From: Deltaproteobacteria bacterium
Lineage (GTDB): Bacteria > Myxococcota_A > Polyangia > JAAYKL01
NCBI GenBank assembly: GCA_030595125.1
Contig: JAUVDV010000029.1
Span: forward strand, 1-58,635
Length of the DNA stretch: 58,635 nt
Reading direction: 5' to 3'
This document shows, one piece after another, positions 1,610 through 57,355 of the stretch. The position numbers were made by a program, and so were the translations under genes. A model generated the notes under the pieces. That model ran no database searches, was not told where the DNA came from, and worked only from the letters and a program-made list of their open reading frames with translations. Each line of letters starts with the position of its first letter. The stretch's first letter is position 1.

Positions 1610-1924
1610 CCCCCATACCTCCGCATCGCTTACTCAACAGACGTTAACCCAAAAGGAGCACCCTTGCCTGGAAGTCTCCATCTTTTCTACAATTTCATCT
1701 ATTACCATCCCCCTTGTGAACATGACTTTAGAATGAAATGTGAAATATGAAAAGTAGCATAAATCCCCACACATTGGGTAACTGGTTTTAACAAACCTTT
1801 AATAATGCAGAATATATGTACCCTCCGCCCAAGGGGGTCAGGGTCATTTGAGAGGGCGCGTATCGACATGAACAGTCGGAAAAAGCCGTAATTACTTTGC
1901 TTTTTTAGGGGTCAGACACTTTTT
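1610..1924. other. Intergenic region with REP-like GGGGTCAG motifs
   Basis: This 315-bp stretch has no convincing gene. It is AT-rich near the kinase start. It contains GGGGGTCAGGGTCATT at 1833-1848 and GGGGTCAGACAC at 1908-1919, the latter running into a T-tract and ending a few bases from the stop codon of the next minus-strand gene. From memory, motifs of this form are common in dispersed REP-type elements linked to REP-associated tyrosine transposases. No transposase gene is present here. Confidence 0.4.
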
Positions 1925-2713
1925 TTATTGCGTTGATAGCAGCGTGCCTGAGGCGATCCAGTCGGAGATGGTCTCCATCTCTTTTTGAGAAAGCGGCTGG
2001 GTTTGTTCGCCTTCCATAAGAATCCTGGGCATCTGCTTACCGACAATGCGACGGTCGCCGATGATCTTGTAGACGAGGTAGCTCTCACCGGGGCGGGACG
2101 GGACTATTCTATCCCATCCCGACCATCCGTCCGCTGGTACGTTCAGGGCCGTTTGCCAGATGCCGTCCACATTTTCCAGGGAAAGTCCGACTATGGGCGA
2201 AGCACCCCCGTGGCACGAGGCGCAGCGGGCGTTGAAAATGTGCTCCACATCGTTGTCGTAGTAGGTCCATGGGAACGGCATGTTGTCGCCGGTTTCCGCG
2301 CCTGTTCTGAATGACGTGATGATCCCCGGCTCCACGGGGTTGCCCTCCAGACCCGTGAGGCCCTCCTTGAGTTCGAACACCCATACGGCGTTCTTTCGCA
2401 GGAGGGATGAAGGCCAGACCACCAACTTCCCACGAACCGGATCGTAATAGGACATCACCCACATGCTCACCGGGCCGGATCCCAACCTGAACACGGATCT
2501 CTTGATGCCGTGGCCGTCGATGTGGTCGCTGAACTCGGTGCGGAGCACCTTGTCGATGAAGACACCCGCCTCCCCTTCGACGGGATCGGCGCTCACCGGG
2601 TAGGGGCCGGGTGGAGGAGCCGCGTCCGGATCGACTTTATATGGAGGCGCACAACCGATCGATGCCACCGCCGAAAAGGCGAGGAGCACGACAAGCCTGG
2701 CCAGCGGGCTCAT
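1925..2713 (-). CDS. Lipoprotein with c-type cytochrome haem motif
   Basis: This 262-residue protein starts with a lipoprotein signal peptide (lipobox SIGC, Cys at about residue 20). An N-terminal part of about 100 residues resembles Ig-like domains of myxobacterial secreted proteins. A single haem-attachment motif, CASCH, lies near residue 165, inside a segment (HIFNARCASCHGG) typical of planctomycete-type cytochrome c domains. A Met about 60 residues later (GKQMPRIL) could be the axial ligand. It is probably a membrane-anchored periplasmic electron carrier. It follows the 84-residue gene by 6 bp and is probably co-transcribed with it. The physiological partner is not evident, although a 13-haem cytochrome lies 1.3 kb away on the same strand. 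Confidence 0.8.
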   Translation of the reverse strand: MSPLARLVVLLAFSAVASIGCAPPYKVDPDAAPPPGPYPVSADPVEGEAGVFIDKVLRTEFSDHIDGHGIKRSVFRLGSGPVSMWVMSYYDPVRGKLVVWPSSLLRKNAVWVFELKEGLTGLEGNPVEPGIITSFRTGAETGDNMPFPWTYYDNDVEHIFNARCASCHGGASPIVGLSLENVDGIWQTALNVPADGWSGWDRIVPSRPGESYLVYKIIGDRRIVGKQMPRILMEGEQTQPLSQKEMETISDWIASGTLLSTQ

Positions 2714-2719
2714 TGGTCT

Positions 2720-2974
2720 TCAAGAATCCGAATAGCCCAGGAGGTGTCCACGAATGACGGGGGGGGCGATGCCGGTGGAGAGATCGGCCTTGAGGCAGTC
2801 AGCAACGGCGATGAGGAGATCGTCGATCCCATTTTCTTCTATAATCTTCTGCATCAGGGCCCTGGCCACGGGACTCTCGTCCTTTCGAAGAAACCCTCTT
2901 ACCATCTCGGGCGTAACCTCTCCCTCAAAGTCCACAATCAGGTTCTCGAAAAGATACTTGGCGAGTTCGTTCAA
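2720..2974 (-). CDS. Small hypothetical protein (84 aa)
   Basis: The frame starts at TTG with GGAGG placed 7 nt upstream, which makes the unusual start credible. The product is acidic, probably helical and cytoplasmic, with no signal peptide or membrane segment. I do not recognise a family. It is the first gene of a two-gene unit with the haem lipoprotein downstream, and a good sigma-70 promoter lies about 67 bp upstream. It may be a small accessory protein, but nothing in the sequence fixes a role. Confidence 0.6.
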   Translation of the reverse strand: MNELAKYLFENLIVDFEGEVTPEMVRGFLRKDESPVARALMQKIIEENGIDDLLIAVADCLKADLSTGIAPPVIRGHLLGYSDS

Positions 2975-3040
2975 TTAATACCTCCATATCCGGCTTCGGC
3001 CTGAGCTCCTTGTGAGCCCAGTTCGTTTGAAGAATTCGAT

Positions 3041-3069
3041 TTTATATAGGTCCCCAAAACGTTGGGCAA
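3041..3069 (-). promoter_or_regulatory. Sigma-70-type promoter for the 2974-1925 unit
   Basis: On the minus strand, TTGCCC (-35, 3069-3064) and TATAAA (-10, 3046-3041) are separated by exactly 17 bp. The predicted transcript has a leader of about 60 nt before the TTG start at 2974. Confidence 0.55.
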
Positions 3070-3130
3070 GACAAATCTCCGAAGCCAGTGCCTCTTCGAC
3101 TGAAAATTGACGGGTGAAATTGAAGCGGCG

Positions 3131-3868
3131 CTATATGCCCAGCACCTGGATGAGAAGCCCGCTCACCAGGATGGCTCCACCCGACAGAGCGTGAACGTAC
3201 TTCTCCAGGAAACCGAAATTTACGAAGCGAAGACCCATGTAACCGAAGGTGACCGCCGTCAGCATGGTGCCTATGGTGGCTACCGCGAAGACACCTGCCA
3301 CCGCGGCGATCCCCGCGATACTGTGCTCGGACGCCGGAACCAGCAAGAGCGGTATGAGCGGCTCGCAGGGACCGAGCACAAAGATGATGAAGATAACCCA
3401 GAGAGTGCGCCGGTGTTGCCTCACGTGTCCGGTATCCTCGTGGGCCGTGCGCTCGTGACCGTCATCGTTCGCGCCCTTGCCGTGATCGTGAGCGTGCTTG
3501 TGAACGGTGCCGTCCGCATGAACATGAACGTGGGTGTGCCCTCCCCTGCGCGCCTGAAAGATCCCCCACAACATATACACCGCGCCGAACCCCATCAGCA
3601 CGTAGCTCGCCAGATCGCCGCGAACTCCCTCGAACCACTCCATACCGGACAGGCTCCAGCCCAGGCCGATTCCGAGCCCGCCCACCACGACAGATGACCC
3701 CACGTGGCCCACGCCGCACAGGAACGTCCAGAAAAGGGTCCGCTTCAGGCTCCAGCCCTCGGAGCGAGCCAGAACGACAAAGGGAAGATAGTGATCCGGG
3801 CCTATGGCCGTATGAGTCAACCCCAACCCGAGCGCTGCCAACATCAGTACGTTTATAGATTCAAACAT
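3131..3868 (-). CDS. NicO/TauE-type membrane transporter with His-rich loop
   Basis: This is a 245-residue integral membrane protein with about six hydrophobic segments. The motif HTAIGPDHYLPF near the N-terminus matches the HxxxxDH signature of nickel/cobalt (NicO/RcnA-like) transporters and related SafE/UreH-type exporters. A cytoplasmic or periplasmic loop around residues 108-150 is packed with His, Asp and Glu, which suggests metal binding. The second half has GPCEPLIPLLL, a conserved helix motif of the family. The substrate is probably a divalent metal, but sulfite or organic-sulfur export by relatives cannot be excluded. A possible -35/-10 pair (TTGACC, 18 bp, ATAGAT; 3980-3951) lies upstream. 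Genes on both sides encode c-type cytochromes, so a link to cofactor or metal supply is conceivable. Confidence 0.75.
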   Translation of the reverse strand: MFESINVLMLAALGLGLTHTAIGPDHYLPFVVLARSEGWSLKRTLFWTFLCGVGHVGSSVVVGGLGIGLGWSLSGMEWFEGVRGDLASYVLMGFGAVYMLWGIFQARRGGHTHVHVHADGTVHKHAHDHGKGANDDGHERTAHEDTGHVRQHRRTLWVIFIIFVLGPCEPLIPLLLVPASEHSIAGIAAVAGVFAVATIGTMLTAVTFGYMGLRFVNFGFLEKYVHALSGGAILVSGLLIQVLGI

Positions 3869-4004
3869 GTTGCACCATTCGAGGAAACCTGAAGCCCACC
3901 GATCTGGACCCCTGATACGAAATTGGGTTCCGGTAGCACGATTTCGAATTATCTATGGACCAAAGACCGCCGCAGGTCAAGACTGCCCCGCCCTCGAACG
4001 CTCT

Positions 4005-5123
4005 CTACTTACAACGCCTCCATATGCTATCCGAGTGGCACTTCACGCAAGCCCGCTGGTTTTTCATGACGAGTGGCTTGCAACGCTTTGCGAATCCGGC
4101 CGGATGCGGATTGATGACCGCGTGACACTGGATGCAGGAACTCTCGGAGTGACACGACACGCACGCGGCGATGTCGTACCTCGCCCTCCTGCAGATCTTG
4201 GCGGGACTCTGATTCTTGTGAAAACTCCCGGCGCTCGACGGACCTGCCCTTGACGGAGAATCCGGAGCGACCCCCGCCCGGCGATGGCAGGTAAGGCAGA
4301 AAGACTGGGACTTGTGGCAACCGGCACAACGAGGGTTGCCCATCCTGGTGCTGACGCCGTGGGAAGACAGCCAGTCGCCCGGATGCACGATCCTCGGTCG
4401 CAGCCTTCCCGTATGACAATCCTGGCAGAACTTCTCCCTGTGGCACGAGGAGCAGAAATCCGAGTCGGCCCCGGCGGTGGGAGCGTGTCGCCCGACCCAG
4501 TCCTCCCCGTGGGACGGACCCTTCAACCAGCCTGGCGGAGTCAGGACGGCATCGCCGAAATTGGTGATCATGCGGCCGTCGGGATGAATGAGGTGACACG
4601 TGCGACACCTGGACGATGCGCCGGATTCCCTTTCATGGCACCGATAACACGCCTTCATTTCCACCACGTCGCGACCTGGAGAATCTTGCTGCCTGCGATG
4701 CGCCCCCTGGTGGCATGATGCGCAACCCAGAATCTTGTGCGCCTTGTGCGAGAACCTTATGTTCGGACGCGGATACTCACCGCGATGCGGGCGCTCACCG
4801 GCCTTGAGCCTGGTGTGACATTTTCTGCAGTCGGCGGTGAGTTCGGTGAACACCGTGACCCCGACTGCCGATTCGTGACACTCGGCGCAAGTGCTCATAT
4901 CCGGAACCAATCGATCAGAGGCCCATCGGGAGGTATTGGCCCGGGGGTGACATTTTACGCAGGCGGGCTTGCCAGGGGCGTGCAACCCGTGAACATCTCC
5001 CACCGACGTTTGCCCCACCGGAAGTAGCTCCAGCGAGATTCCCCTGAGATCGGTCGCCCCGACGCAGATCCCCAGAACAAGGAGCGCGGCAGCCACCGTT
5101 AATGCTATCCGGTTTCGCATCAT
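4005..5123 (-). CDS. 13-haem c-type cytochrome
   Basis: A signal peptide is followed by thirteen CXXCH motifs (CVKCH, CAECH, CRKCH, CASCH, CYRCH, CRTCH, CSSCH, CQDCH, CAGCH, CLTCH, CVSCH, CIQCH, CVKCH) in about 370 residues, with many free His residues as possible distal ligands. The protein is rich in Arg and Lys outside the motifs. It is probably periplasmic or at the outer membrane and acts in long-range electron transfer. The start overlaps the stop codon of the upstream beta-barrel gene. ATG at 5123 or 5120, or GTG at 5129, are all possible because the only SD-like GGAG is inside the overlap. The tight coupling to a porin-like gene suggests a porin-cytochrome pair. The exact family is not recognised. 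Confidence 0.85.
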   Translation of the reverse strand: MMRNRIALTVAAALLVLGICVGATDLRGISLELLPVGQTSVGDVHGLHAPGKPACVKCHPRANTSRWASDRLVPDMSTCAECHESAVGVTVFTELTADCRKCHTRLKAGERPHRGEYPRPNIRFSHKAHKILGCASCHQGAHRRQQDSPGRDVVEMKACYRCHERESGASSRCRTCHLIHPDGRMITNFGDAVLTPPGWLKGPSHGEDWVGRHAPTAGADSDFCSSCHREKFCQDCHTGRLRPRIVHPGDWLSSHGVSTRMGNPRCAGCHKSQSFCLTCHRRAGVAPDSPSRAGPSSAGSFHKNQSPAKICRRARYDIAACVSCHSESSCIQCHAVINPHPAGFAKRCKPLVMKNQRACVKCHSDSIWRRCK

Positions 5124-6574
5124 CTCCACAGATCCAATTGCAAAAGAGCGAGGACGACGACCCGTGGATCTTCTCCCTCGCTGAAATAGTTTTCCAGCTC
5201 GCCGGCCAGGTGGGCTCCCTTCAACAACCTGAAACGAGCCGAGGCCATGTATCCGAACAGATCTCCGCTGAAACGTTCGGAATAGTCATCGTCGATGTGC
5301 CAGTACGACAATCTCAAGCCAAGCCAGAGGCGCCCGGATACGAATCCGTGTCCGCCGCCTATCTCGGCGCCCACCCTGCTCTCTCCCCATTCCCGCAGGG
5401 CGCTTACCCTGGACGAAAAACGATTGGACAGAGTTCTGTAATTTCCGCCGAAACCCCCGCCGACTCCGGAGACTGTTGCGTCGATCTCCTCGCCGCTCAG
5501 GCCCGCGCTCTGGTCGGCCATCCGCGCGTATGCCCAGGTGGCAACGGAGACCTTCCCGCCGGGAAAGACCTCCAGACGTCCACCCAGATCCCTCCTCGGG
5601 GCCAGATCGAAAACGTTAAAAATGGAATCGGCGGCGAACATCGGCCGAAACAGGTGGTACTCGGCGCTCAGGGCGAGGGCGTCGACGGGGGTAACCGTGA
5701 TCTCCGCGTCGGCCTCCCGAAGCAAGGTTCCCTCCGCAACTGCGGCGGACAGATCGTCGCGCCTATCGAGCATGGGGCTCCACATGATCCTGCCGTGAAA
5801 CCTCAACGGATCCGTGCCCGCGTCCAGCCTGCCGCCAAAAAGTTGTGACGAGATCTCCTTTGACAACCCGACGACGCGGACCGCCGCGCCCACGTCGAGC
5901 CACGATCGGGGATACCACGAAACCTCGGTCCCGAAGACCATCTCCGAATCCGGATCTTCCCTGTCGGAATACGTGCCGGGATCCATCCCGTCCCGGCCGC
6001 CCGAGTCCACGCCGTCGAGCTCGAGCTGGTCGTACCCGAGTCGATGTCCACCCTTCACCTCGTAACCAAGGTAGGTGGACACAGCCAGATAGCCCGGAAG
6101 GTGGAGCACGGTCTCAATTCCGTCAAAAGCAAAGAAACCGATGGTGTCCACGCGGATCTGCCTGCCCGCGCGAACATCCAGCACCCCTTCCCAGAACCCT
6201 CGCGCGTCCAGATACACGAACATCATGTCCATCTGCATGGGGGTGAGCCCCGGAATATACGCATCCGCTATGGATGAATCACTCTCGCTTTGTGAGATCG
6301 AGAAATCGGTGTCCAGCCTCAGGGACATCTCCACTGAAAGCCGGAGCCCCTGGTAGTAGGGGTCGTCCGACCCGGGCAACAGATTCCACGCGGCCAGATG
6401 AAGATCCTCTACCAGCCTTCTGCGCGAGATCAGGGATCCGTCACTTGCGGGAACGGAATAGCCCTGCGCCCACAGCTCGGAAGAAACCTGCATGTCGTGG
6501 CCGAACATCCATGAAGGGATGAGGAAAAGAGCGATCGCGATCGCCGCAGCGTGATGTCCTATTTGAGATCGCAC
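5120..6574 (-). CDS. Outer-membrane beta-barrel (porin-like) protein
   Basis: This 484-residue protein has an N-terminal signal peptide, then alternating amphipathic strands with aromatic girdle residues and acidic, Gly-rich loops throughout. It ends in LQLDLWR, close to the aromatic-ending C-terminal strand of outer-membrane proteins. The likely start is GTG at 6574, overlapping the end of the YbjN-like gene by 16 bp. The 3' end overlaps the 13-haem cytochrome gene. No named porin family is recognised. In MtrAB-type or PioAB-type systems, a barrel of this kind houses a multihaem cytochrome, and that role is inferred here from gene order only. Confidence 0.7.
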   Translation of the reverse strand: MRSQIGHHAAAIAIALFLIPSWMFGHDMQVSSELWAQGYSVPASDGSLISRRRLVEDLHLAAWNLLPGSDDPYYQGLRLSVEMSLRLDTDFSISQSESDSSIADAYIPGLTPMQMDMMFVYLDARGFWEGVLDVRAGRQIRVDTIGFFAFDGIETVLHLPGYLAVSTYLGYEVKGGHRLGYDQLELDGVDSGGRDGMDPGTYSDREDPDSEMVFGTEVSWYPRSWLDVGAAVRVVGLSKEISSQLFGGRLDAGTDPLRFHGRIMWSPMLDRRDDLSAAVAEGTLLREADAEITVTPVDALALSAEYHLFRPMFAADSIFNVFDLAPRRDLGGRLEVFPGGKVSVATWAYARMADQSAGLSGEEIDATVSGVGGGFGGNYRTLSNRFSSRVSALREWGESRVGAEIGGGHGFVSGRLWLGLRLSYWHIDDDYSERFSGDLFGYMASARFRLLKGAHLAGELENYFSEGEDPRVVVLALLQLDLWR

Positions 6575-7023
6575 ACCCGGGTGCCCCCGAATTCGTCTAC
6601 CAGAAGATCGTCGTACTTGTCGGCGTAATGACCGATCACAGCCAGCATCTCCTCCACCTCGGCCCTGTCCAGATACTCCACACTGCGCTCGGCCACCAGC
6701 GCCACTATCTTTCCGCTGAGCGTGCCGAATGCGATCCCCGGAAGCCAGGCTCCATTGAGCTCCAACAGGCGCTCCGCGAGGCCCAATGGAAGATCAGGAT
6801 CAAATTTGACGATGGGGGAAACGACCCGCAAGCGGGCTGTCGACCCGTCCTGCCCGGGATTGATCGCGATCATCACATCTGCGGAACCCTTGGCAATTTG
6901 CCATGCCGCGCCACCTTCCACCGCCTTGATCTCACTCTTCTCGGGATCGACCCCGAGACTCTTGATCACCGCAGCGACCGCCTTGACGGCCTTTTTTATC
7001 GTGCCCTGAGTCTGGAAGACCAT
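6559..7023 (-). CDS. YbjN-like / T3SS-chaperone-fold protein
   Basis: This 154-residue soluble protein has no signal peptide. Its pattern of an N-terminal helix, antiparallel strands with the segment ADVMIAINPG, a central LAERLLELNG helix and the later strand GKIVALVAERS is typical of YbjN-like proteins that share the type III secretion chaperone fold. Members of this group bind partner proteins. It begins with ATG preceded by GGGAGTAGAA and overlaps the barrel gene downstream, so it is probably the first gene of a three-gene operon (ybjN-like, barrel, cytochrome). A chaperone or regulatory role for that operon is an inference. Confidence 0.65.
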   Translation of the reverse strand: MVFQTQGTIKKAVKAVAAVIKSLGVDPEKSEIKAVEGGAAWQIAKGSADVMIAINPGQDGSTARLRVVSPIVKFDPDLPLGLAERLLELNGAWLPGIAFGTLSGKIVALVAERSVEYLDRAEVEEMLAVIGHYADKYDDLLVDEFGGTRVCDLK

Positions 7024-7110: not shown

Positions 7111-7593
7111 TCAGTACGCGCACTTCCACGTGTAATCGCAGGTGCAGAAACAGGTTGTCATCCCACCCAGCGGGCACATGAGCCCCGCGATACTGCATCC
7201 GGTATCCGGAACGGGGTTGACGGAGGAGCACAGGGACTCGGGGTCGGGCAGGGGATCGGGCATGCAGACGTAACCGTCCCAATCCTGAATACAAGCGTAG
7301 CCCCCGCAGCACTGATCGTCGGCCTCGTCGCAGGTCACGCACTCGTCCAGGCAGTAGGCCCCGGTATCTCCACCCGTATCGGAATCGGTATCAGTGTCGG
7401 TGTCAGCATCTGTATCCGTGTCGGTATCAGTATCGCCATCTGTGTCGCCGTCGGTATCGCCGTCAGTGTCGCCGTCGGTGTCGCCGTCGGTATCACCATC
7501 CGTCCCACCGTCGAGGCCGCCGGGCGAACCGTCCGAGCAGCCGGCGGTACAGAAAAACGCAACCGTCAAAATAAAGAGATGATTTCTGTTCAT
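7111..7593 (-). CDS. Lipoprotein: DGDT linker and Cys-rich domain
   Basis: The signal peptide ends in lipobox TAGC at about residue 19. Residues 25-80 are a (DGDT)n/(DT)n low-complexity linker. The last 85 residues form a compact Cys-rich domain with CC-x2-Y-x-C-I, a later CM and a terminal CFCTCDYTWKC. The same spacing recurs in the protein at 43000-43407 (CYCTCDGWEC ending), so the two are homologous although the linkers differ (DGDT against DSDT). No named domain is recognised; many Cys pairs suggest disulfide bonds outside the cytoplasm. It lies 28 bp downstream of the thioredoxin-like lipoprotein gene and may be co-transcribed with it. Confidence 0.75.
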   Translation of the reverse strand: MNRNHLFILTVAFFCTAGCSDGSPGGLDGGTDGDTDGDTDGDTDGDTDGDTDGDTDTDTDTDADTDTDTDSDTGGDTGAYCLDECVTCDEADDQCCGGYACIQDWDGYVCMPDPLPDPESLCSSVNPVPDTGCSIAGLMCPLGGMTTCFCTCDYTWKCAY

Positions 7594-7621
7594 CGTTCAC
7601 TACCCCCATTTCAGGGAACGA

Positions 7622-8332
7622 TTACTCTCCCAGGTTGGCGTCGGTGACCAGCTGAATTATCTCCGGCCCCGTCATCACATCACCGTCGCCGGCGTAGTAG
7701 TCGACCCTGAGTATAATTCCCGTGTTCAGATCGACGACGGCCATGTTCGGGTAGTAGGAATAACTGAAGAAATTACTGGCCGGAACCCCCGAATAGTAGC
7801 CCGGATCGAAGCCGTAGTGCCCCGAGAAGTACTCGTAATTCTCCAGTGCTGTTCTTGTTTGTTGTCCGAGCCCACCACTGTAGAACATCAACATCACTGA
7901 ATTCTGCGCGGTAATATCATCAAAAAAGGAAGTCGCGGCAAGCTCTCCATATCTGACGCCGCATGGTGGGCAGTCCTCGTCACTGACTGCAAATATGACC
8001 GTCTGATAACCCGCACAGAAGATCTCTTCCAACGTGAACGGGGCTTCTGTATCATCGACAACGCCGTCGCTATCGCCATCAAAAAGACCGGTAATGTTGA
8101 AGTTTGCCACATTACTGCCGTTGCTGAAGACGCCGCCGCCCCATTGCGCGGTTACTTCGCACGGGCCGGTATCGGTGTCGGTGTCAGTGTCGGTGTCAGT
8201 GTCAGTGTCGGTGTCGGCATCTCCATCCGCATCCGAGTCGCTGCCGGAACTTCCCTCATCGTCGCATCCGACCATGCCCGATCCGACAAGAACCACCAGG
8301 AGTAATGCGAGCAGTAATGTAAAGCGTTTCAT
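7622..8332 (-). CDS. Thioredoxin-like lipoprotein with Asp-Thr linker
   Basis: A signal peptide with lipobox MVGC is followed by an acidic D[ST] linker (about residues 30-55). The globular part contains VSDEDCPPCGVRY, which carries a CPPC redox motif placed after a predicted strand as in TlpA/AhpC-like thioredoxin folds, and then a long helix and the strand NMAVVDLNTGIIL. The role is probably thiol-disulfide exchange outside the cytoplasm. The CPPC dipeptide differs from the CGPC of thioredoxins. The ATG is preceded by AGAGGTAACGAAA. A neighbouring Cys-rich lipoprotein downstream could be a substrate, which is speculative. Confidence 0.75.
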   Translation of the reverse strand: MKRFTLLLALLLVVLVGSGMVGCDDEGSSGSDSDADGDADTDTDTDTDTDTDTDTGPCEVTAQWGGGVFSNGSNVANFNITGLFDGDSDGVVDDTEAPFTLEEIFCAGYQTVIFAVSDEDCPPCGVRYGELAATSFFDDITAQNSVMLMFYSGGLGQQTRTALENYEYFSGHYGFDPGYYSGVPASNFFSYSYYPNMAVVDLNTGIILRVDYYAGDGDVMTGPEIIQLVTDANLGE

Positions 8333-14212: not shown

Positions 14213-15199
14213 TTACGGACAGCCCGCTGGAACCGGCGTGCAGGAGTCGTCGAGATTGGATTCGACATGTATCGACGTGGGAGTGCTGGTGAGCTGGTCC
14301 AGAACGTCGCACACCTCGCAGTCGGGAAGAACGTCGTTGCCGTATATATGAAAGTCTTCACTCACCGAAGTAAGAGCGACAAGCCCGTCCAGGTCGGTGA
14401 GGGCATCGTTGAAGCGGATCTCCAAGTCCCAACCCACCGAGTTGATGTTGCTAAGGCCGTCAAGGTTGGTGAGGGCGGCGTTGCCTTCGATGTGCAAGGT
14501 CTGGCCCACAGAGGTGATGCCGCTCAGCCCGTCCAGGTTTGTAAGGGCGTCGTTAAAGGAGATTTCCAAGCCCTCACCCAGCGAGGTGAAAGCGCTCAGC
14601 CCGTCCAGATTTGTGAGCACGTCGTTCCATGTGATGCTCAACCACCCGACCACCGAGGTGAGTGCGCTCAAGCCGTCCAGGCTGGCGAGGGCGTTGTTAA
14701 CGCCGATTGTCACAACCCCGCCCACAGAGGAGAGGGCGCTTAGACCGTCCAGATTGACTAGGGCGGGGTTGCCAATAATGCCCAAAGACCAGCCTAGCGA
14801 GTTGAGAGCGCCAAGGCCGTCCAGGTTGGTGAGGGCGGCGTTTTCCACGATCATCAAGTTCCCGCCCACAGAGGTGAGGCAAACCAACTCACTCAGGTCA
14901 ATGCACGAAGGGCACTCGATTCTAAGCTCTCCAGAGATCGAGGTGTATCCCGCGAGGGCTGCAACTTGCGCCTGTGTTGTGATGATAAGATCGCCGCTGT
15001 ACACTCCTAGATTACAATCGGCATCGGTATCCGTGTCGGTATCCGTATCCGTGTCTGTATCCGAGTCGGTATCGGTGTCGGTATCGGTGTCGGTATCGGT
15101 GTCGCCACCGTCGGTCCCACCGTCACTGTTCGACGAACCGTTCGAGCACCCGCCGAAAACCAGCAAAGTCGCCAGCGCTATCAAAAACAAGGATCGCAT
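14213..15199 (-). CDS. LRR (receptor-L-like) lipoprotein with Asp-Thr linker
   Basis: A signal peptide with lipobox FGGC is followed by a DT/DS linker at about residues 28-60. A capped repeat domain then contains seven copies of a unit of about 24-25 residues of the form ALTNLDGLSALTSVGG, each followed by an inward strand. This resembles receptor L-type leucine-rich repeats. The cap segments (LAGYTSISGELRIECPSC and LPDCEVCDVLDQL) are almost the same as in the protein at 43569-44582, so these are paralogues. It probably mediates binding outside the cell. The ATG is preceded by GGCGGGGG and by the shared promoter/leader cassette. Confidence 0.85.
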   Translation of the reverse strand: MRSLFLIALATLLVFGGCSNGSSNSDGGTDGGDTDTDTDTDTDTDSDTDTDTDTDTDTDADCNLGVYSGDLIITTQAQVAALAGYTSISGELRIECPSCIDLSELVCLTSVGGNLMIVENAALTNLDGLGALNSLGWSLGIIGNPALVNLDGLSALSSVGGVVTIGVNNALASLDGLSALTSVVGWLSITWNDVLTNLDGLSAFTSLGEGLEISFNDALTNLDGLSGITSVGQTLHIEGNAALTNLDGLSNINSVGWDLEIRFNDALTDLDGLVALTSVSEDFHIYGNDVLPDCEVCDVLDQLTSTPTSIHVESNLDDSCTPVPAGCP

Positions 15200-15237
15200 T
15201 CCCCCGCCTTTCGTTTTGCACGTAGGAGTATTCTATA
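15200..15237 (-). promoter_or_regulatory. Conserved promoter/leader cassette, copy 1
   Basis: On the minus strand a TAGAAT -10 box (15235-15230) is followed 31 nt later by the ATG. The leader carries ACGTGCAAAACGAAAGGC and GGGGGA as the SD. The same arrangement occurs at 42964, 43533 and 54984. Confidence 0.6.
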
Positions 15238-15253
15238 ATGCTACGTGGAATAA

Positions 15254-16324
15254 TCACTCACAATAGACGACGCCCTCGGTTCCCACCGCGAACACTTCGC
15301 CGGTCTGCGCCACCCAGACATCGTTGAGCGGAAAGTCGAACGGGCCGGTCACTTTGGACCATGAAGAACCGTTGTAGTGGAGAACCACGCCACCGGATCC
15401 TTCTTTGCCCACGGCGAAGATGTCCGACGACGACCGCCCTCCGATGCCGGTCAAGGTGACATTTGCGCCATCAGAGCCAAGTGAAACCTCGCTCCACCCT
15501 CCGGCATCCTTGTGGAACATGGACGCATCGGCCCCCATGACCATGCTACCTACCGCGTGGATATCCGTGGAAGAGCTGCCCCATATCGCCTCCAGTGAGG
15601 AGAGCATCGCCAGTGTCGTCGCCTCGGAAGACCAGCCCGATCCGTTGTAGTGGAGGATCGCACCACTCCCCACCACATAGACGTTGCTGCCAGAGGTGCC
15701 CCACACATCGGCCGGGAGGGTGGTCGTTACCGGGATCCCCGACATCTCCGTCCACCCCGAACCGTCGTAGTGCGCGACCATCGGTGACAGAAGACCCCCC
15801 ACTGCGAAAACGTCGTCGCTCGACACGCCCCACACTCCGTTGAGGAAATCGGCAATGCCGATGACTGTTTGGGTCCAGTCCAACCCGTTGTAGCGGAGGA
15901 CGAGGTCAAGCTCTCCGACGATGAACACGTCTGTGGCGCCGGTCCCCCAAACTCCGCGAAGCCCCACCGCCCCGATCCCCGGATTCAGCGCGTTCCATGA
16001 GCCATCGTGGTAGTGGAACACCGTGGTTTCCACCAGAGTGTCGCCGCCCACCATGAACACATCGTTCGCGGACGCCCCCCATACAGACGAAAGGGAAGCC
16101 GAGGTGTGTACATTCCACGCGCAGGGAAAATCGGTGTCCGTATCGGTGTCTGTGTCTGTATCTGTGTCTGTGTCGGCATCTGTGTCGGCATCTGTATCCG
16201 TATCAGTATCGGTGTCCGTGCCCGTATCGCCCACCCATCCCAGGGGTACCACCCTGTCGCAGCCCACCGCACAACAGGAGGCAACTATAACGGCGAGAAC
16301 AGTTGTAGGAATTGCACGTGTCAT
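15254..16324 (-). CDS. Seven-blade beta-propeller lipoprotein with Asp-Thr linker
   Basis: ATG at 16324 starts a good signal peptide (MTRAIPTTVLAVIVASC, lipobox AVGC); an in-frame GTG 33 nt upstream would add a polar extension and has no SD. After a (DT)n/(DADT) linker, seven repeats of the form VWGASANDVFMVG alternate with strands such as HYDGSGWTEM. Seven such units fit a closed seven-blade propeller. Similar Myxococcota proteins are annotated only as lipoproteins. No catalytic residues are visible; a binding role is more likely. TACAAT lies 6 nt before the ATG, so the mRNA may be leaderless. Confidence 0.8.
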   Translation of the reverse strand: MTRAIPTTVLAVIVASCCAVGCDRVVPLGWVGDTGTDTDTDTDTDADTDADTDTDTDTDTDTDTDFPCAWNVHTSASLSSVWGASANDVFMVGGDTLVETTVFHYHDGSWNALNPGIGAVGLRGVWGTGATDVFIVGELDLVLRYNGLDWTQTVIGIADFLNGVWGVSSDDVFAVGGLLSPMVAHYDGSGWTEMSGIPVTTTLPADVWGTSGSNVYVVGSGAILHYNGSGWSSEATTLAMLSSLEAIWGSSSTDIHAVGSMVMGADASMFHKDAGGWSEVSLGSDGANVTLTGIGGRSSSDIFAVGKEGSGGVVLHYNGSSWSKVTGPFDFPLNDVWVAQTGEVFAVGTEGVVYCE

Positions 16325-16489
16325 GAAAATATTGTATCGGCTCGACCAGTTACTCACAATAACAACGAGCCTCTCATGATTTGGGGGGGTATTAATGTAT
16401 TTAGAACGCTACTTTCATAAAAAAAGATTCCCCAAAAGGACTTTACGAGTATACAATTTTATCAAACAATTCCAATCCAATCAAAGCGA

Positions 16490-19400
16490 ATGGAGTGCGA
16501 TGTGAATTATAAAGCAATACAACTATCGGTGATATTGGTTCCATGCTTTCTATTGATCCAATGTTCCAACGACCCAGCCGATCCGGACTTTGATTCCGGA
16601 ACCGGCGACACGGATACTGATACGGATACCGATACTGACACGGACACCGATACCGATACGGACACCGATACGGACACGGACACCGATACCGATACGGACA
16701 CCGATACCGATACTGACACCGATACCGATACCGATACGGACACCGATACCGATACCGGCACGGACACGGGAACGGATACGGGAACGGATACGGGAACGGA
16801 TACGGGAACGGATACCGACACGGACACCGATACCGATGTAGATGCCGGACCGGATGGCGGCGGGGACGCAGGACCGATCGATCTCTGCCCGGGTGATCCT
16901 CTCAAAACAGATCCCGGTGTTTGTGGTTGCGGTGTCCCGGATGTGGACATCGATCTCGACAGCACAATGGACTGCCTGGACACCTGCATCGATCTGGATG
17001 GCGACGGATACGGTTTGCCCGGGGGCGCGGGAGACACCTGCCTCGGCGCGGACTGCGATGATGATCCATCCGCATGCGGCGCGGGTTGCTATCCCGGGAA
17101 CACCGCTCTGGATATTTGCGACACCTACAACCAGGATTGCGATGGCTTTGTTGACGAGGACCCGGACCTCACCTGGTACGAGGATTCCGACGGCGACACT
17201 TTCGGCAATCCTGCTGTTTCCTCAACCGTTTGCGCAGCCCCGGGTGGTTATGTCGCGGACAACACCGACTGCGACGACGACACTTCCGCGTGCGGCGCCG
17301 GTTGTTATCCAGGAAACACCGCTCTGGATATTTGCGACACTTACAACCAGGATTGCGATGCCTTCGTCGACGAGGACTCGGACCTCACCTGGTACGAGGA
17401 TTCCGACGGCGACACTTTCGGCAATCCTGCCGTTTCCTCAACCGTTTGCGCAGCCCCGGGTGGTTATGTCGCGGACAACACCGACTGCGACGACGACACT
17501 TCCGCGTGCGGTGCCGGTTGCTATCCCGGTAACTTGGCTCCGGATATTTGCGACACTTACAACCAGGATTGCGATGCCTTTGTCGACGAGGACCCGGAGT
17601 TTACGTGGTACGCCGACACCGACGGCGACGGCTACGGTGATTTAACGGTCCCGACCGACGCATGCACCGCTCCACTGGGTTATGTCGCGGACAACACCGA
17701 CTGCGACGACGACACTTCCGCGTGCGGCGCCGATTGCTATCCCGGTAACGTGGCTCCGGATATTTGCGACACTTACAACCAGGATTGCGATGCCTTTATT
17801 GACGAGGACCCGGACGTAACCTGGTACGAGGACTCCGACAGTGACACTTTCGGAAATCCCGCTGTAACCATAATTGCTTGCGCAGCTCCGGTCGGATATG
17901 TGGCGGACAACACAGACTGCGACGACGACACTTCCGCGTGTGGCGCTGGTTGCTATCCCGGTAACACCGCTTTGGATATTTGCGACACTTACAACCAGGA
18001 TTGCGATGCCTTTGTCGACGAGGACCCGGAGTTTACCTGGTACGCCGACACCGACGGCGACGGCTACGGTGATTTAACGGTCCCGACCGACGCATGCACC
18101 GCTCCACTGGGTTATGTCGCGGACAACACAGACTGCGACGACGACACTTCCGCGTGCGGCGCCGGTTGCTATCCCGGTAACTTGGCTCCGGATATTTGCA
18201 ACACTTACAACCAGGATTGCGATGCCTTTGTCGACGAGGACCCGGAGTTTACGTGGTACGCCGACACCGACGGCGACGGCTACGGTGATTTAACGGTCCC
18301 GGCCGACGCATGCGCCGCTCCGTTTGGTTACGTCGCGGACAACACCGACTGCGATGACGACACTTCCGCATGCGGCGCTGGCTGCTATCCCGGTAACGTG
18401 GCTCCGGACATCTGCGACACATACAACCAGGATTGCGATGCTTTTGTTGACGAGGACCCGGACATAACCTGGTACGAGGACTCCGACGGTGACGGTTACG
18501 GTAATTTCATGGTCATGACCATCGCGTGTACCGCTCCGGTCGGTTATGTCGCAGACGACACGGACTGCAACGACTCATACGACGGCTGCTGGCAACTCGG
18601 TGTCGAAACCGCAACATGCGATCCCAATTGCACCTCCGCCATCTGTGGCGACACATACCCCAACGCCACCGCCGGAGAGGCTTGCGACGACGGAACCAAC
18701 GATGGTTCCTATGGTACCTGCATGCCCGGCTGCGGCGCTCTGGCCCCATACTGTGGAGACGGAGCCACCGAGCCTGGTGAGGAAGATTGCGACGATTCCG
18801 GCGAGTCCGCAACCTGCGACTCGGATTGCACCTTCGCTGTTTGTCCGGATGGCATCCTCAATACCACCGCCGGGGAGATCTGCGATGAGGGCGGCGACAC
18901 TGCGGCCTGTGACGGAGACTGCACCGGGGTCCTGTGCGGCGACATGTATATCAACGGCGTCGCCGGAGAGGCTTGCGACGACGGAACAAATAACGGTTCC
19001 TATGGCACCTGCATGCCAGGCTGCGGCGCTCTGGCCCCCTATTGCGGAGATGGAATCATCGATCCTCCCGATGAGGAGTGCGACGGAGATCCCGATTGCA
19101 ATACCGATTGCACATGGGACTTCTACTGCTCGTACGTCAGCCCCGGAACCCTCTCGAGTACGACAGATTGCGATCTCACAGTTCTGGGTAACGGTTTCGA
19201 TACGGACATGACGGTCACTCTCATTGGACAACCGCCACTAAACCCGTTGGTCGACATCGCCGTGCTCAACCCCTACTGGCTCATGAGCACGGGTTCCATC
19301 TCGCTGGTGGCGGCTACCCTGGGATTGAACGACGGCACCTACCAGGTCGTGCTCGACAACGTGGCCGATGGCGAGACGGCTCTTTGCGCCGACACGGTCG

Positions 19401-21574
19401 ATCTGGTGAGCACAACCGGAATCACGGTAACCGACGTTGAGCCCGACATCGCGTGGACGGGCTCGGTCATGGACAGCATCATCTCTGACATGATCGTTGA
19501 GGTCACCGGGACCGGGTTCACGGAAGTTCCCATGGTCACATGGATCAACGATAGCAACCCGAGCATTCGCTTCGACGCGCCGTATGTGATCTGGAACAAC
19601 TCCACTTCTCTTACCGCCCTTTGTCCCACGGAGAGCGAGAGCATGCCTCCGGGTATATACAACGTGGAGGTAGTGAACCCGTTGCCCCTGGACGTGGGCG
19701 CCTTCTGGATAGATGGAGTGGTTCTCGGCGAGTTCGAGGTCACGGCTTCGCCGCCTCCCATTATCAATGAAATGGATCCGTTCAGGTCACCGTCGGGTGT
19801 TTCCAACCTGGTGACAATCGAAGGCGCCAACTTCGCGACAGGGGTTGTCGTTCAACTCCTGGACGCTTCCGATCTGTCGTCGGTGCTGTATACTTTCACA
19901 CCCGCTCCTGGGGATGTGGATCCGGGTGGAACCTGGCTCGAGGTCACTATTACCGGCGTAGTTCAGGGTGTCTTCCCGGTCAGGGTTTTAAACCCGGACG
20001 GTCAATCAGATCTGTACTACTTCTGGGGATCGACCTCGTCGGCTGTGGCCCATCTCACGGAATTCGTCGAATATCCGGCAGTGACAATGGCCACACCAAG
20101 ATGGCGTCATGCGTCGGTTCAGGGGTTCGATCCGTACGGAGGAGCATACATTTATACCGGTGGAGGTCTCGACACAGCCGGAACCGTTCTCGATACAGTG
20201 GAGATCATGCCCGTTTCGATTTCCGGCGAGCTTGACACACCCTGGATCTCCCAGAAATGGGACCCCTCAACCGAGACTCATGTCGACAATACCTTCAACA
20301 CCGCGCGCCAGGGACTCTCGATTGTCAGGTACGGCGAATGGGTTTACGCGCTCGGCGGCACCCAATTCAACACCACACTCGATACAACTGTCCATCCGGC
20401 CCTTGACGACATCGAAAGAGCCTCCATGCTTGGCACTGACGAACAGCCGTTCACCACTTCATACGTTGTGGATGATACGGTCGGCAGTATGGCTCTGGGC
20501 ACCTGGTACTACCAGATTTCAGCCATCGGCTCCTGGGGCGAGTCCCTCGCTTCGATTCTCAGGATGGTTCCCAACGGCGAGGGGACAGTCACGATCAACT
20601 GGAACCCGATCGTGGGCGCCACGCACTACAATATCTACAGAAACATCAACCCCGATGGTGATGGAGGCGAGACATTCCTGGTTGACACTATTACAGCGGC
20701 ATCCACCAGTTTCATCGATACCGGGGTAGCCGCAGATCCCACAGAGAAGCCATTGCCCCTGGGGGCTATAGGCGAGTGGGAAACACTCTCCACTACAATG
20801 AACAGCCAGAGAGAGGGACTGGACGCGGTCAAGATTACCGTCCCGGACGGAGTTGGAGGAGGAACACCCTTCATCTACGTGGTCGGCGGTCGCGTGGATT
20901 CCGCCGCATACAATGTCGGGCCACCGGAGTCCGAGGCCTGGACACTGGATACGGTTGAGCGTTCTACCATAGGACTGACCGGGGATCTCTCAGCCTTCAC
21001 TATCCTGACCGAGACTCTCAGCAACGAACGCGCATTCTTCCCGCTTCTTACAAGTCAGGGTCAAAACGCTTTCGTTTCCAGAGAAGAAGTGTTTGACGAC
21101 TCTGAGCTCCTGCGGTTGATCGCCGTCACGGGAGATGATTACTGGGATGATTTCACTACCCCAATTTCTCAGGCAAATAATGGTCAGAACTGGATTGACA
21201 TCTGCACCATCATCGACGCCGCAGGCAATATCAGTCCCTGGGTCACACAAAATCTCTCAGCCACAAAGGCGAACCACGGCGACGACTCTCTGCTCTTCTT
21301 CGATGCGCTCTTCATTTTCAACGGGGTAAAATCTGAGTCTCTGGGAGCCTATCCCAGCGCCCACGGTGGGACCACCCAGCGCCTCCAGTACGACGAAACA
21401 TTCTACTATCCCAACCTCGTTGCCATGGAGGACATTCTGTTCGGCGGCAGTTCGTCAAATGAGACTCCGCAAACCCGCGCATACCTTTCGGTGGTAAGAC
21501 TCAACGGCTACATCTTCGCCATTGGTGGTGTTGACAGCGGCCCGCCCATCGCGGAGATCGACAGAGGGCACTAG
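16490..21574 (+). CDS. Giant modular lipoprotein: Asp-Thr linker, MopE repeats, IPT/TIG, kelch
   Basis: This 1694-residue protein begins with a signal peptide (lipobox LIQC). Residues 40-117 are (DT)n with DTGT variants. Residues about 133-180 form a DPxKTDPGVCGCG-type module. Residues 188-691 are seven exact 72-residue MopE-type putative metal-binding repeats (TDCDDDTSACGAGCYPGN). Residues about 700-880 hold Myxococcus-type Cys-rich repeats (GEACDDGTNDGSYGTC). Three IPT/TIG-like domains span about 885-1185. The rest is kelch-like (GEWVYALGGTQ, GYIFAIGGVDSG) with an inserted fibronectin-III-like module (GATHYNIYRNINPDGDG). It is probably a large surface protein that may bind calcium or copper. 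No SD is visible before the ATG. The gene converges on lysS with a 4-bp overlap. Confidence 0.85.
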   Translation: MECDVNYKAIQLSVILVPCFLLIQCSNDPADPDFDSGTGDTDTDTDTDTDTDTDTDTDTDTDTDTDTDTDTDTDTDTDTDTDTDTDTDTGTDTGTDTGTDTGTDTGTDTDTDTDTDVDAGPDGGGDAGPIDLCPGDPLKTDPGVCGCGVPDVDIDLDSTMDCLDTCIDLDGDGYGLPGGAGDTCLGADCDDDPSACGAGCYPGNTALDICDTYNQDCDGFVDEDPDLTWYEDSDGDTFGNPAVSSTVCAAPGGYVADNTDCDDDTSACGAGCYPGNTALDICDTYNQDCDAFVDEDSDLTWYEDSDGDTFGNPAVSSTVCAAPGGYVADNTDCDDDTSACGAGCYPGNLAPDICDTYNQDCDAFVDEDPEFTWYADTDGDGYGDLTVPTDACTAPLGYVADNTDCDDDTSACGADCYPGNVAPDICDTYNQDCDAFIDEDPDVTWYEDSDSDTFGNPAVTIIACAAPVGYVADNTDCDDDTSACGAGCYPGNTALDICDTYNQDCDAFVDEDPEFTWYADTDGDGYGDLTVPTDACTAPLGYVADNTDCDDDTSACGAGCYPGNLAPDICNTYNQDCDAFVDEDPEFTWYADTDGDGYGDLTVPADACAAPFGYVADNTDCDDDTSACGAGCYPGNVAPDICDTYNQDCDAFVDEDPDITWYEDSDGDGYGNFMVMTIACTAPVGYVADDTDCNDSYDGCWQLGVETATCDPNCTSAICGDTYPNATAGEACDDGTNDGSYGTCMPGCGALAPYCGDGATEPGEEDCDDSGESATCDSDCTFAVCPDGILNTTAGEICDEGGDTAACDGDCTGVLCGDMYINGVAGEACDDGTNNGSYGTCMPGCGALAPYCGDGIIDPPDEECDGDPDCNTDCTWDFYCSYVSPGTLSSTTDCDLTVLGNGFDTDMTVTLIGQPPLNPLVDIAVLNPYWLMSTGSISLVAATLGLNDGTYQVVLDNVADGETALCADTVDLVSTTGITVTDVEPDIAWTGSVMDSIISDMIVEVTGTGFTEVPMVTWINDSNPSIRFDAPYVIWNNSTSLTALCPTESESMPPGIYNVEVVNPLPLDVGAFWIDGVVLGEFEVTASPPPIINEMDPFRSPSGVSNLVTIEGANFATGVVVQLLDASDLSSVLYTFTPAPGDVDPGGTWLEVTITGVVQGVFPVRVLNPDGQSDLYYFWGSTSSAVAHLTEFVEYPAVTMATPRWRHASVQGFDPYGGAYIYTGGGLDTAGTVLDTVEIMPVSISGELDTPWISQKWDPSTETHVDNTFNTARQGLSIVRYGEWVYALGGTQFNTTLDTTVHPALDDIERASMLGTDEQPFTTSYVVDDTVGSMALGTWYYQISAIGSWGESLASILRMVPNGEGTVTINWNPIVGATHYNIYRNINPDGDGGETFLVDTITAASTSFIDTGVAADPTEKPLPLGAIGEWETLSTTMNSQREGLDAVKITVPDGVGGGTPFIYVVGGRVDSAAYNVGPPESEAWTLDTVERSTIGLTGDLSAFTILTETLSNERAFFPLLTSQGQNAFVSREEVFDDSELLRLIAVTGDDYWDDFTTPISQANNGQNWIDICTIIDAAGNISPWVTQNLSATKANHGDDSLLFFDALFIFNGVKSESLGAYPSAHGGTTQRLQYDETFYYPNLVAMEDILFGGSSSNETPQTRAYLSVVRLNGYIFAIGGVDSGPPIAEIDRGH
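16607..16839 (+). repeat. Hexanucleotide array encoding the Asp-Thr linker
   Basis: About 38 hexamers of the form GAYACN (Asp-Thr) run without interruption, with some GGNACG variants encoding Gly-Thr. It is the longest of the linker arrays in the window. Synonymous third positions vary (ACC, ACG, ACT), so the amino-acid pattern is kept more strictly than the nucleotide pattern. Confidence 0.9.
17051..18562 (+). repeat. Seven 216-bp tandem repeats (MopE modules)
   Basis: Units begin at GACTGCGAY and recur at 17051, 17267 and so on to 18347, in constant register of 216 bp. Several neighbouring units are nearly identical over long blocks, which points to recent duplication or gene conversion. 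Confidence 0.9.
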
Positions 21575-42999: not shown

Positions 43000-43407
43000 T
43001 TGCGATACTTACTGTTGATGATCCTGGCGACCGTGCTGGTTTGCGGCGGGTGTGGCGATGATGACAACGACGACACCGGCGGGGACTCCGACTCTGACTC
43101 CGATACCGATACGGACACCGACTCGGACTCGGATTCCGACACGGACACGGACGCGGACACGGGCAGCGATTCCGAGTGCGACGACTTGTGTGAACCTTGC
43201 AGCGACGAGCCGGAAAGCTGCTGCGAGCCGTACCAGTGCATAGTCGCCCCGGGGGAAGACCTCTGCATGTATTTCGATCCCGACCTGGAGCTGTGCCCCG
43301 AGAACGAGCCGACCGATCTCACCACCTGCGAGCACCCGGGCCTCGACTGCGTGTTCGAGTACACCGACTGCTACTGCACCTGTGACGGCTGGGAGTGCGG
43401 TGATTGA
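43000..43407 (+). CDS. Lipoprotein: Asp-Ser/Thr linker and Cys-rich domain
   Basis: The start is TTG, in the place where paralogous leaders have ATG, directly behind GGTGGGGGA. The signal peptide MRYLLLMILATVLVCGGC is nearly identical to that of the protein at 55021. After a D[ST] linker (about residues 28-57), the C-terminal Cys-rich domain has CC-x2-Y-x-C-I and ends CYCTCDGWECGD, matching the lipoprotein at 7111-7593. The family is not recognised beyond this pair. Disulfide bonding outside the cytoplasm is expected. Confidence 0.8.
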   Translation: MRYLLLMILATVLVCGGCGDDDNDDTGGDSDSDSDTDTDTDSDSDSDTDTDADTGSDSECDDLCEPCSDEPESCCEPYQCIVAPGEDLCMYFDPDLELCPENEPTDLTTCEHPGLDCVFEYTDCYCTCDGWECGD

Positions 43408-43434
43408 GGCATGACGGCTCTCTTCAGCTGACTG

Positions 43435-43450
43435 AGCCGAAAACTCGGCT
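43435..43450 (+). terminator. Possible weak hairpin after the 43000 gene
   Basis: AGCCGA-AAAC-TCGGCT forms a 6-bp perfect stem 28 nt after the stop codon and is followed by GTTTCC. The lack of a real T-tract makes intrinsic termination doubtful. Confidence 0.3.
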
Positions 43451-43532
43451 GTTTCCGACCTTGCACCCCTACCCCCGCGAACTGTCCGTGAAGCTGGTCT
43501 TTCCCTTCGTGGCGCCTTTCCGCGATCACTGG

Positions 43533-43568
43533 TAAAATACTCTCACGTACAAAATGAAAGGCGGGGGA
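43533..43568 (+). promoter_or_regulatory. Conserved promoter/leader cassette, copy 3
   Basis: TGGTAAAAT (extended -10, TAAAAT at 43533-43538) is followed by CTCTCACGTACAAAATGAAA and GGCGGGGGA, with ATG 31 nt after the -10. It matches copy 2 at nearly every position. Confidence 0.65.
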
Positions 43569-44582
43569 ATGAAGTACTTGCTTTTGATGGTCATGGCGAC
43601 CGTGATTGTGTGCGGCGGGTGTGGTGATGATGACGATGACGATTTCGATGGTGGCACCGACACGGACACCGATACAGATACAGACCCGGTCGAGTGCAAC
43701 ATGGGAGAGTACAGCGACCATTTCGAGATCAATACACAATCATATATTCAATGGCTCGCGGGATACACATCCATCTCAGGAATCCTTACAATCAAGTGCC
43801 CTTCGTGCACCGACTTGAGCGAATTGATTTGCCTTGCCTCGACTGGCTGGGATTTGCGGATCCAAGAAAACGACGCCCTCACAAACCTTGACGGTCTGAG
43901 TGGTCTCACCTCGGTGGGCGAAGCCTTGGAGATCGAATTTAACCCCTCCCTCACAAACCTGAACGGCCTGAGCGCCCTCAATTCAGTGGGTGGGTATTTG
44001 CGGATCTGCGGAAACCTCGCCCTCACAAACCTGGACGGCCTGAGCGCCGTCACCTCGGTGGAGGACTTGCACATTCTCAGCAACCCCTCCCTCACCAACC
44101 TTGACGGTCTAAGCGCCGTCACCTCGGTGGGCGGGGACTTGGGTATCTCCGGGAACGACACTCTTACCAACGTGGACGGGCTGAGCAATCTCACCTCGGT
44201 AGGTTGGGAGTTGGCAATCTCCTACAACGACGCCCTCACCAACGTGGACGGGCTGAGTTCCCTCACCTCGGTGGGTGGGAATTTGCTGATAGGTACGGGT
44301 CCAGGGGGCGGCAACGATGTCCTCACCAACGTGGACGGGCTGAGCAATCTCACCTCGGTGGGCGAAGCATTGGCGATCGATAACAATGACGCCCTCACAA
44401 ACCTGGACGGGCTGAGCGCACTCACCTTGGTGGGCGGGGATTTGAGTATCTCCGGGAACGACGCTCTGCCCGATTGCGAAGTGTGTGATCTTCTGGACCA
44501 GCTCGCTACCACACCCACTTCGATAAATGTCCACGACAACCTCTCCGACACATGCACGCCGGTTCCGGCGAACTGTCCGTAG
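43569..44582 (+). CDS. LRR (receptor-L-like) lipoprotein, paralogue of 14213-15199
   Basis: ATG at 43569 is preceded by GGCGGGGGA; an in-frame ATG 15 nt upstream lies before this SD. The signal peptide (VCGGC) and a short D/DT linker lead to eight LRR units of the type ALTNVDGLSNLTSVG. One unit carries a 7-residue Gly-rich insertion (GTGPGGG). Cap sequences LAGYTSISGILTIKCPSC and LPDCEVCDLLDQLATTPTSI are shared with the paralogue. It probably mediates extracellular binding. The linker here is much shorter than in the paralogue, so linker length is not fixed by the cargo domain. Confidence 0.85.
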   Translation: MKYLLLMVMATVIVCGGCGDDDDDDFDGGTDTDTDTDTDPVECNMGEYSDHFEINTQSYIQWLAGYTSISGILTIKCPSCTDLSELICLASTGWDLRIQENDALTNLDGLSGLTSVGEALEIEFNPSLTNLNGLSALNSVGGYLRICGNLALTNLDGLSAVTSVEDLHILSNPSLTNLDGLSAVTSVGGDLGISGNDTLTNVDGLSNLTSVGWELAISYNDALTNVDGLSSLTSVGGNLLIGTGPGGGNDVLTNVDGLSNLTSVGEALAIDNNDALTNLDGLSALTLVGGDLSISGNDALPDCEVCDLLDQLATTPTSINVHDNLSDTCTPVPANCP

Positions 44583-55020: not shown

Positions 55021-55749
55021 ATGCGATATTTGCTGTTGATGATTCTGGCGACAGTGCTGGTGTGCGGTGGGTGTAGTGATGATGATGGCATCGGTGGAGG
55101 TGGGGACTCGGACTCTGACTCCGATTCAGACACTGACACGGATACAGACTCGGATACAGACTCGGACACCGACTCGGACACCGATACGGATTTTACTTAC
55201 GGTGTGTGCAAATTGAGCTGCACCGCACCCGCAGACTGCGTACCGGACACCCCCAACGAAACACATGACGCGGACAATTTCGACTGCACCGATGACGTTT
55301 GCACATGGAAGGGCTGTCTCAACACCGCCGAATGCGCAGTAGTGTTCCCCGGCATCACCGGCATCGCATGCGACACCAATGTGGACCCGCCGAAGTGCCA
55401 CGTACCTTGCTCCGCTCCCGCCGACTGCGCCCTTGACTCGTCAGCGGTACTCTATCCGATCTTCGGGTCCGACAACTCCACCTGCGACAACAGCCTGTGC
55501 GTCTGGACCGGATGCAACAACGACCAGGAGTGCGTCGACGCGTATCCCGCCAAAACATGGGTTTGCCATGAGTATTTGAATACCCCCATATGCGGCGTTG
55601 GCTGCACGACGCCGGCCGACTGCGCCTTGACGGATGACCTCTTCAACGAGGACCACTGGCTGTGCACTGACGGCGCCTGCGAGCACACGGGCTGCGCCTC
55701 CACCGCAGAGTGTATTTTCTACACCGCCGACCATGTCTGCGTGAAGTAG
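55021..55749 (+). CDS. Lipoprotein: Asp-Ser/Thr linker and three Cys-rich repeats
   Basis: The signal peptide MRYLLLMILATVLVCGGC matches that at 43000 almost fully. After a D[ST] linker (about residues 28-57), three tandem Cys-rich units of about 55-60 residues follow, with the pattern CTAPADCV...CTWKGCLNTAECAV, CSAPADCAL...CVWTGCNNDQECV and CTTPADCAL...CEHTGCASTAECI. No named domain is recognised. Regular spacing of Cys suggests three disulfide knots. The leader cassette is copy 4, and the upstream promoter region is copy A of the 38-bp duplication. Confidence 0.78.
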   Translation: MRYLLLMILATVLVCGGCSDDDGIGGGGDSDSDSDSDTDTDTDSDTDSDTDSDTDTDFTYGVCKLSCTAPADCVPDTPNETHDADNFDCTDDVCTWKGCLNTAECAVVFPGITGIACDTNVDPPKCHVPCSAPADCALDSSAVLYPIFGSDNSTCDNSLCVWTGCNNDQECVDAYPAKTWVCHEYLNTPICGVGCTTPADCALTDDLFNEDHWLCTDGACEHTGCASTAECIFYTADHVCVK

Positions 55750-55775
55750 TCTCCCCCCGTTCCCACTGGTCTCCA

Positions 55776-55813
55776 CCCAAATAATGACTTCCACTCCTTG
55801 GAAAGGGTATGAT
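55776..55813 (+). promoter_or_regulatory. Duplicated 38-bp promoter region, copy B
   Basis: This copy has ATGACT and TATGAT at 18-bp spacing and precedes the 55841 gene. The downstream leader differs from copy A: the leader here holds GGAGGTGGGCGACA. Confidence 0.65.
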
Positions 55814-55840
55814 CGCCCCAATAGATGGAGGTGGGCGACA

Positions 55841-57115: not shown

Positions 57116-57186
57116 CGATTGCCGTGTGATGTTTGTCCTGCGCCGCTCGGCTTCTGCCGAGCTATGCAGGATGGCACGATTTGGAT

Positions 57187-57231: not shown

Positions 57232-57274
57232 AACTCACGGCACTGAGTCCCACCGCGTATTCTTTACTCCTTAT

Positions 57275-57297: not shown

Positions 57298-57355
57298 ACT
57301 CAGACTAACACAGATTCAGTAAAAGAGACTTTTCAAAGAGACCATTTGCCGTGAT

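Follow-up and report, generated by a model that had tools for sequence, protein, structure and literature searches.

Does a run of three overlapping genes in a Polyangia genome, for a small chaperone-fold protein, an outer-membrane beta-barrel and a multihaem c-type cytochrome, encode a path for electrons across the outer membrane? We addressed this question for the locus as it lies in the window (the whole 58,635-nucleotide stretch that was analysed, from a 5.4-Mb genome in 203 contigs) and for its counterparts in related genomes. As the original prediction had it, three overlapping open reading frames are present; all lie on the minus strand: a YbjN/TY-Chap1-fold protein (6559..7023, 154 aa, no signal peptide seen), the barrel (5120..6574, 484 aa, GTG start, signal peptide) and the cytochrome (4005..5129, 374 aa from a GTG start, or from an ATG at 5123). 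The YbjN-like and barrel genes overlap by 16 bp. Between the barrel and cytochrome genes the overlap is 10 bp with the GTG start; the in-frame ATG at 5123, which is favoured by profile alignment, shortens it to 4 bp (ATGA). Among 30 barrel-cytochrome pairs in related genomes, the overlap is exactly 4 bp in 13 and 10 bp in 6, and the number of haems is likewise stable (13 in 71 of 79 non-redundant pairs, 12 in three, 10 in five); these recurrences indicate that the gene arrangement in the window is not a product of chance. Judged from the overlaps, a fixed ratio of products is plausible. Neither a multihaem surface cytochrome nor an inner-membrane quinol oxidase is encoded at the window locus.

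Thirteen CxxCH motifs were counted in the cytochrome, in agreement with the predicted 13 haems, and a signal peptide without a lipobox was identified by eye. The protein scores 48.5 bits against Pfam Cytochrome_C7, its N-terminal half matches GSU1996 (3ov0) by profile at 1.6e-37, and the N-terminal half of its model (pLDDT 70.5, a middling confidence) resembles the alternative complex III subunit ActA (Z 4.5, rmsd 6.6, 156 residues), such Z values and CxxCH-driven profile matches being weak evidence of kinship. The likeness to GSU1996-type c7-domain chains is limited to the N-terminal half, and the C-terminal seven-haem half has no comparable profile match among those listed. To our knowledge, GSU1996 has no barrel partner. 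In the 10-haem relatives of the same family (L024, L023, L031, L029 and L027), the N-terminal three-haem segment is missing and the barrel is kept.

The barrel fold was modelled with AlphaFold2 from 69 aligned homologues (mean pLDDT 90.9, pTM 0.82), and the strand list of the model comprises 22 strands after the signal-peptide helix; the model shows neither a plug nor any additional domain. A barrel of under about 20 strands had been regarded at the outset as too narrow for a conduit, and the predicted count lies above that limit. Sequence motifs of the form GRQ..DG and RPxFDxDSIFNVF are conserved across the family. The impression that the barrel belongs to no named family was borne out: nothing in Pfam or NCBIfam scored above cut-off, 31 barrel relatives showed no consistent Pfam family, and searching the PDB sequences with a profile of the barrel returned no match. 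The suggested comparison with MtrB/PioB came out negative, PF11854 being unmatched by the barrel at E 0.1 and absent from the whole genome as well. The structural matches listed for the barrel do not include MtrB. An empty plug-less barrel of 22 strands would be a large hole in the membrane, so something probably fills it, and the constant partner is the cytochrome.

This constancy was evaluated over a broad set of genomes. Of the near relatives, 33 of 39 gave a barrel match, as did 142 of 192 genomes in a sample of the class and 83 of 283 in a sample of the phylum. A genome family (f39) at first taken for Anaeromyxobacter gave no barrel match and only a small number of multihaem cytochromes; it is therefore probably another group, with no bearing on Anaeromyxobacter. 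The named relatives that carry the locus are Myxococcota (among them Polyangiaceae, Labilithrix, Sorangium, Polyangium and Nannocystis), mostly metagenome-assembled genomes, and the carriers include a cultured strain, Pyxidicoccus caerfyrddinensis CA032A. For 76 of the 80 loci from named Myxococcota, the barrel gene stands immediately upstream of the cytochrome gene, and in the other four the contig ends within about 210 bp upstream of the cytochrome; since these loci were retrieved via the cytochrome, the presence of the barrel is an independent observation. Furthermore, pairwise distances of barrel and cytochrome over 37 loci correlate at 0.94, with partial correlations of 0.77 for barrel and cytochrome (given the 84-aa protein and lipoprotein described below) and 0.61 for barrel and lipoprotein, so that barrel and cytochrome follow each other more closely than these two neighbours account for; the values are inflated by shared history, affected by the noisy distances of the short 84-aa protein and descriptive only. 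Two further candidate signals were discarded. Apparent barrel-cytochrome fusions in five genomes proved to be long open reading frames in GC-rich DNA, with translation of an unrelated frame ahead of the cytochrome. The charges are clearly complementary for the window pair (barrel -27, cytochrome +24), but the family as a whole does not show this (barrel -28 to +20, cytochrome -21 to +51), and charge was therefore left out of the argument. A second barrel pair in one relative (L047, G026:C146, 1369-3150, minus strand) has a cytochrome open reading frame with 18 CxxCH motifs and near-identical repeated segments. Our literature search returned no paper on this barrel family or on such conduits in Polyangia.

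Beyond the pair itself, the unit has companions of differing constancy. The upstream protein scores above cut-off against TY-Chap1 (PF22551, 30.2 bits, cut-off 27) and below it against YbjN (PF10722, 17.9, cut-off 22), so that the label "ybjN-like" was right at the level of fold family. Eighteen loci from several lineages have its gene close to that of the barrel, which marks it as a frequent but optional companion; the small chaperone-fold protein that had been counted into the unit is thus present here and is not a core part. Commoner partners, absent from the original prediction, are two genes on the same strand 3' of the cytochrome gene, and both belong to the unit. The first encodes a conserved 84-aa protein without a signal peptide (2720..2974, minus strand), whose family has no Pfam or NCBIfam name; of the 47 loci in which this family was found, 44 have it on the strand of the cytochrome and downstream of it, and the gene is present downstream in 41 of the 85 loci with room for it. 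The second (1925..2713, minus strand) encodes a lipoprotein with an Ig-like (Big_5-like) region and one CxxCH, its Big_5 and cytochrome matches being weak and below cut-offs, and occurs downstream in 37 of 72 loci with room. Members of this lipoprotein family adjoin the 84-aa gene and were collected from 47 loci, with a lipobox-like site in 30. Most have a single haem motif, CX4CH in 25 loci and CX2CH in 15; two loci show two motifs, and in five none was seen. The one-haem lipoprotein is a candidate outer-surface or periplasmic partner. A membrane protein with a His-rich loop, encoded between the cytochrome and 84-aa genes (3131..3868, minus strand; weak VIT1 match only), was weighed as a possible core member and rejected because its gene occurs in five loci, all of the source genus, and represents an insertion restricted to that genus. 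Elsewhere in the window (7111-8332, 14213-21574, 43000-44582 and 55021-58634) lie numerous genes for predicted lipoproteins in which the lipobox is followed by a long DTDTDT/DSDSDT linker encoded by simple repeats; a DNA pattern for paired haem motifs was also tried and rejected, as it matched only low-complexity repeats resembling DTDTD linkers.

The source genome contains a second barrel and 13-haem cytochrome pair, located beside formate dehydrogenase genes (L055; G000:C92, 1095-9598). Both members are homologous to those of the window (barrel by hhalign, 99.5%, E 2.8e-22, 349 columns; cytochrome, E 5.4e-82), and this cytochrome has a lipobox-like site. The run comprises genes for an FdnG-type formate dehydrogenase with a TAT signal, FdnH-like and FdhE-like proteins, a 4-haem lipoprotein, the barrel and the cytochrome; the FdnG-type gene has an in-frame TGA (L055:1752-1754) at the FdnG selenocysteine position (HQARI-U-HSATVASL), and no cytochrome b subunit gene was found beside it. 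We regard this run as possibly encoding a formate dehydrogenase that is electrically linked to the outer membrane, and the occurrence of a homologous pair in a redox locus supports trans-membrane wiring. In a relative (G030), one contig (L057, C59:30000-49900) carries two modules, each of barrel, 12-haem cytochrome and 11-haem lipoprotein, together with NrfD-like and 4Fe-4S proteins. Both layouts are of the type expected for conduits that would connect a redox enzyme of a membrane or of the cell surface across the outer membrane. A possible third surface cytochrome locus of the source genome (L208; G000:C27:8000-20000) has a 25-haem cytochrome open reading frame (5029-6894, minus strand, 622 aa) adjoining a 20-haem one (1871-5065, minus strand, 1065 aa, lipobox-like site).

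Comparison with known systems places the window pair by its plan. According to Shi et al. 2014 (PMC4245776), Pcc clusters combine porins of 18-22 predicted strands with periplasmic cytochromes that have 5-14 haems, ranges that include the 22 strands and 13 haems found here. The plan of one porin and one large periplasmic cytochrome in a single cluster is shared with Geobacter OmbB-OmaB-OmcB and with the two-gene group IV of Anaeromyxobacter. The Pcc clusters of Anaeromyxobacter, itself a member of the Myxococcota, and of Kuenenia consist of porin and cytochrome only, with 12 or 14 haems (PMC4245776), so the layout of porin and periplasmic cytochrome is not new to the phylum; the two-gene Anaeromyxobacter form also resembles the window in being without a surface multihaem cytochrome. 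Unlike Pcc, the window type adds the 84-aa protein and one-haem lipoprotein at roughly every second locus, and some loci have a YbjN-fold gene on the 5' side. The outer-membrane multihaem cytochrome of Pcc has no equivalent at the window beyond the one-haem lipoprotein (the formate dehydrogenase locus has its 4-haem lipoprotein). MtrAB, PioAB and MtoAB likewise set a wide barrel beside a multihaem cytochrome, and MtrB encloses MtrA within a 26-strand barrel (PMC7198977), but these systems have 26 (or predicted 28) strands against 22, 10 haems against 13, and a barrel family (PF11854) that the window barrel does not match. In Verrucomicrobia, a novel porin of at least 20 predicted strands stands beside a periplasmic eight-haem cytochrome (PMC5615132), a layout analogous by description, with eight haems against 13. 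The window pair would thus appear to be of the porin-cytochrome kind without being a named member, placed by plan and not by sequence kinship to Pcc.

Ultimately, we estimate at roughly 80% the probability that the barrel and 13-haem cytochrome form a Pcc-like trans-outer-membrane electron conduit, and the porin-cytochrome conduit originally proposed is well supported by the 22 plug-less strands, the near-obligate pairing and the homologous pair in a redox locus. Points against it are that the locus has neither a multihaem surface cytochrome nor an inner-membrane quinol oxidase gene, that confidence in the cytochrome model is middling, that shared history explains part of the distance correlation, and that several carriers are from lineages known as aerobic soil myxobacteria. 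The two proteins would form a physical complex with the cytochrome inside the barrel: the 22-stranded barrel would serve as an insulating sheath in the outer membrane, and the cytochrome would enter it from the periplasm and carry electrons across. The one-haem lipoprotein may act as the outer partner, and the YbjN-fold protein as a cytoplasmic assembly or quality-control helper. Outward is the likelier direction of electron flow, in which case minerals, humics or some other acceptor at the surface would receive the electrons. A variant of the same conduit, in which electrons would pass inward from an extracellular donor, or in which the pair would, as in DmsEFAB, serve a redox enzyme at the surface, here one whose gene lies elsewhere, seems to us rather unlikely; the paralogous pair beside a TAT-exported, selenocysteine FdnG-type enzyme with no adjacent cytochrome b subunit found, and a weak DmsE-type similarity of the cytochrome, speak for it, while the window locus is without an enzyme gene and sequence cannot reveal the direction of flow.

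Less probable still, and improbable in our estimation, is a shared operon without a complex, in which the barrel would act as a porin for solutes or metals and the cytochrome would carry or store electrons in the periplasm in the ordinary way. Solute porins (MOMP, OprD/Occ and AlgE) do rank high in Foldseek searches with the barrel, and Alginate_exp (PF13372) gives a weak, sub-threshold match (12.4 bits, cut-off 25.2); however, the near-absolute pairing and co-divergence of barrel and cytochrome argue against this explanation, as do the homologous pair in the formate dehydrogenase locus and the very wide open pore that 22 strands with no plug would leave. An usher-like secretion pore with a chaperone-fold helper is very hard to credit, for although the usher pores FimD (Z 17.6) and PapC (Z 17.3) are the nearest solved folds (rmsd 5.1-5.5 over about 350 residues) and the upstream gene has the TY-Chap1 fold, sequence identity is 7-10% only, these wide 24-strand barrels carry plug and usher domains that the 484-aa, 22-strand barrel is without (N- and C-terminal domains included), no usher Pfam family matches, there is no substrate gene, and linkage to the YbjN-like gene is optional where linkage to the cytochrome is not.

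Taking the electron conduit as the preferred reading, we advance tentatively, and at well short of even odds, the wider proposal that this is a widespread Myxococcota conduit built on a separate barrel family and present also in aerobic predatory and cellulolytic lineages, in which the outer terminus would be a single-haem (often CX4CH) lipoprotein and a paralogous copy would tie a selenocysteine-containing formate dehydrogenase to the outer membrane or connect it across that membrane. Several of the lineages with named loci are known as aerobic soil myxobacteria, for which we know of no extracellular respiration. The barrel family, which is recognised by no Pfam or NCBIfam model, would accordingly offer a new marker for conduits. 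The pair of 13 haems and 22 strands, together with the variants in nature that keep the barrel but have 10 haems, would provide a compact system in which to study how haem number is matched to barrel size. If the conduit reading is true, surface electron exchange would be common in much of the class and would extend to other Myxococcota in part, a cultured Pyxidicoccus isolate among them, and its carriers would be groups not thought to be electroactive.
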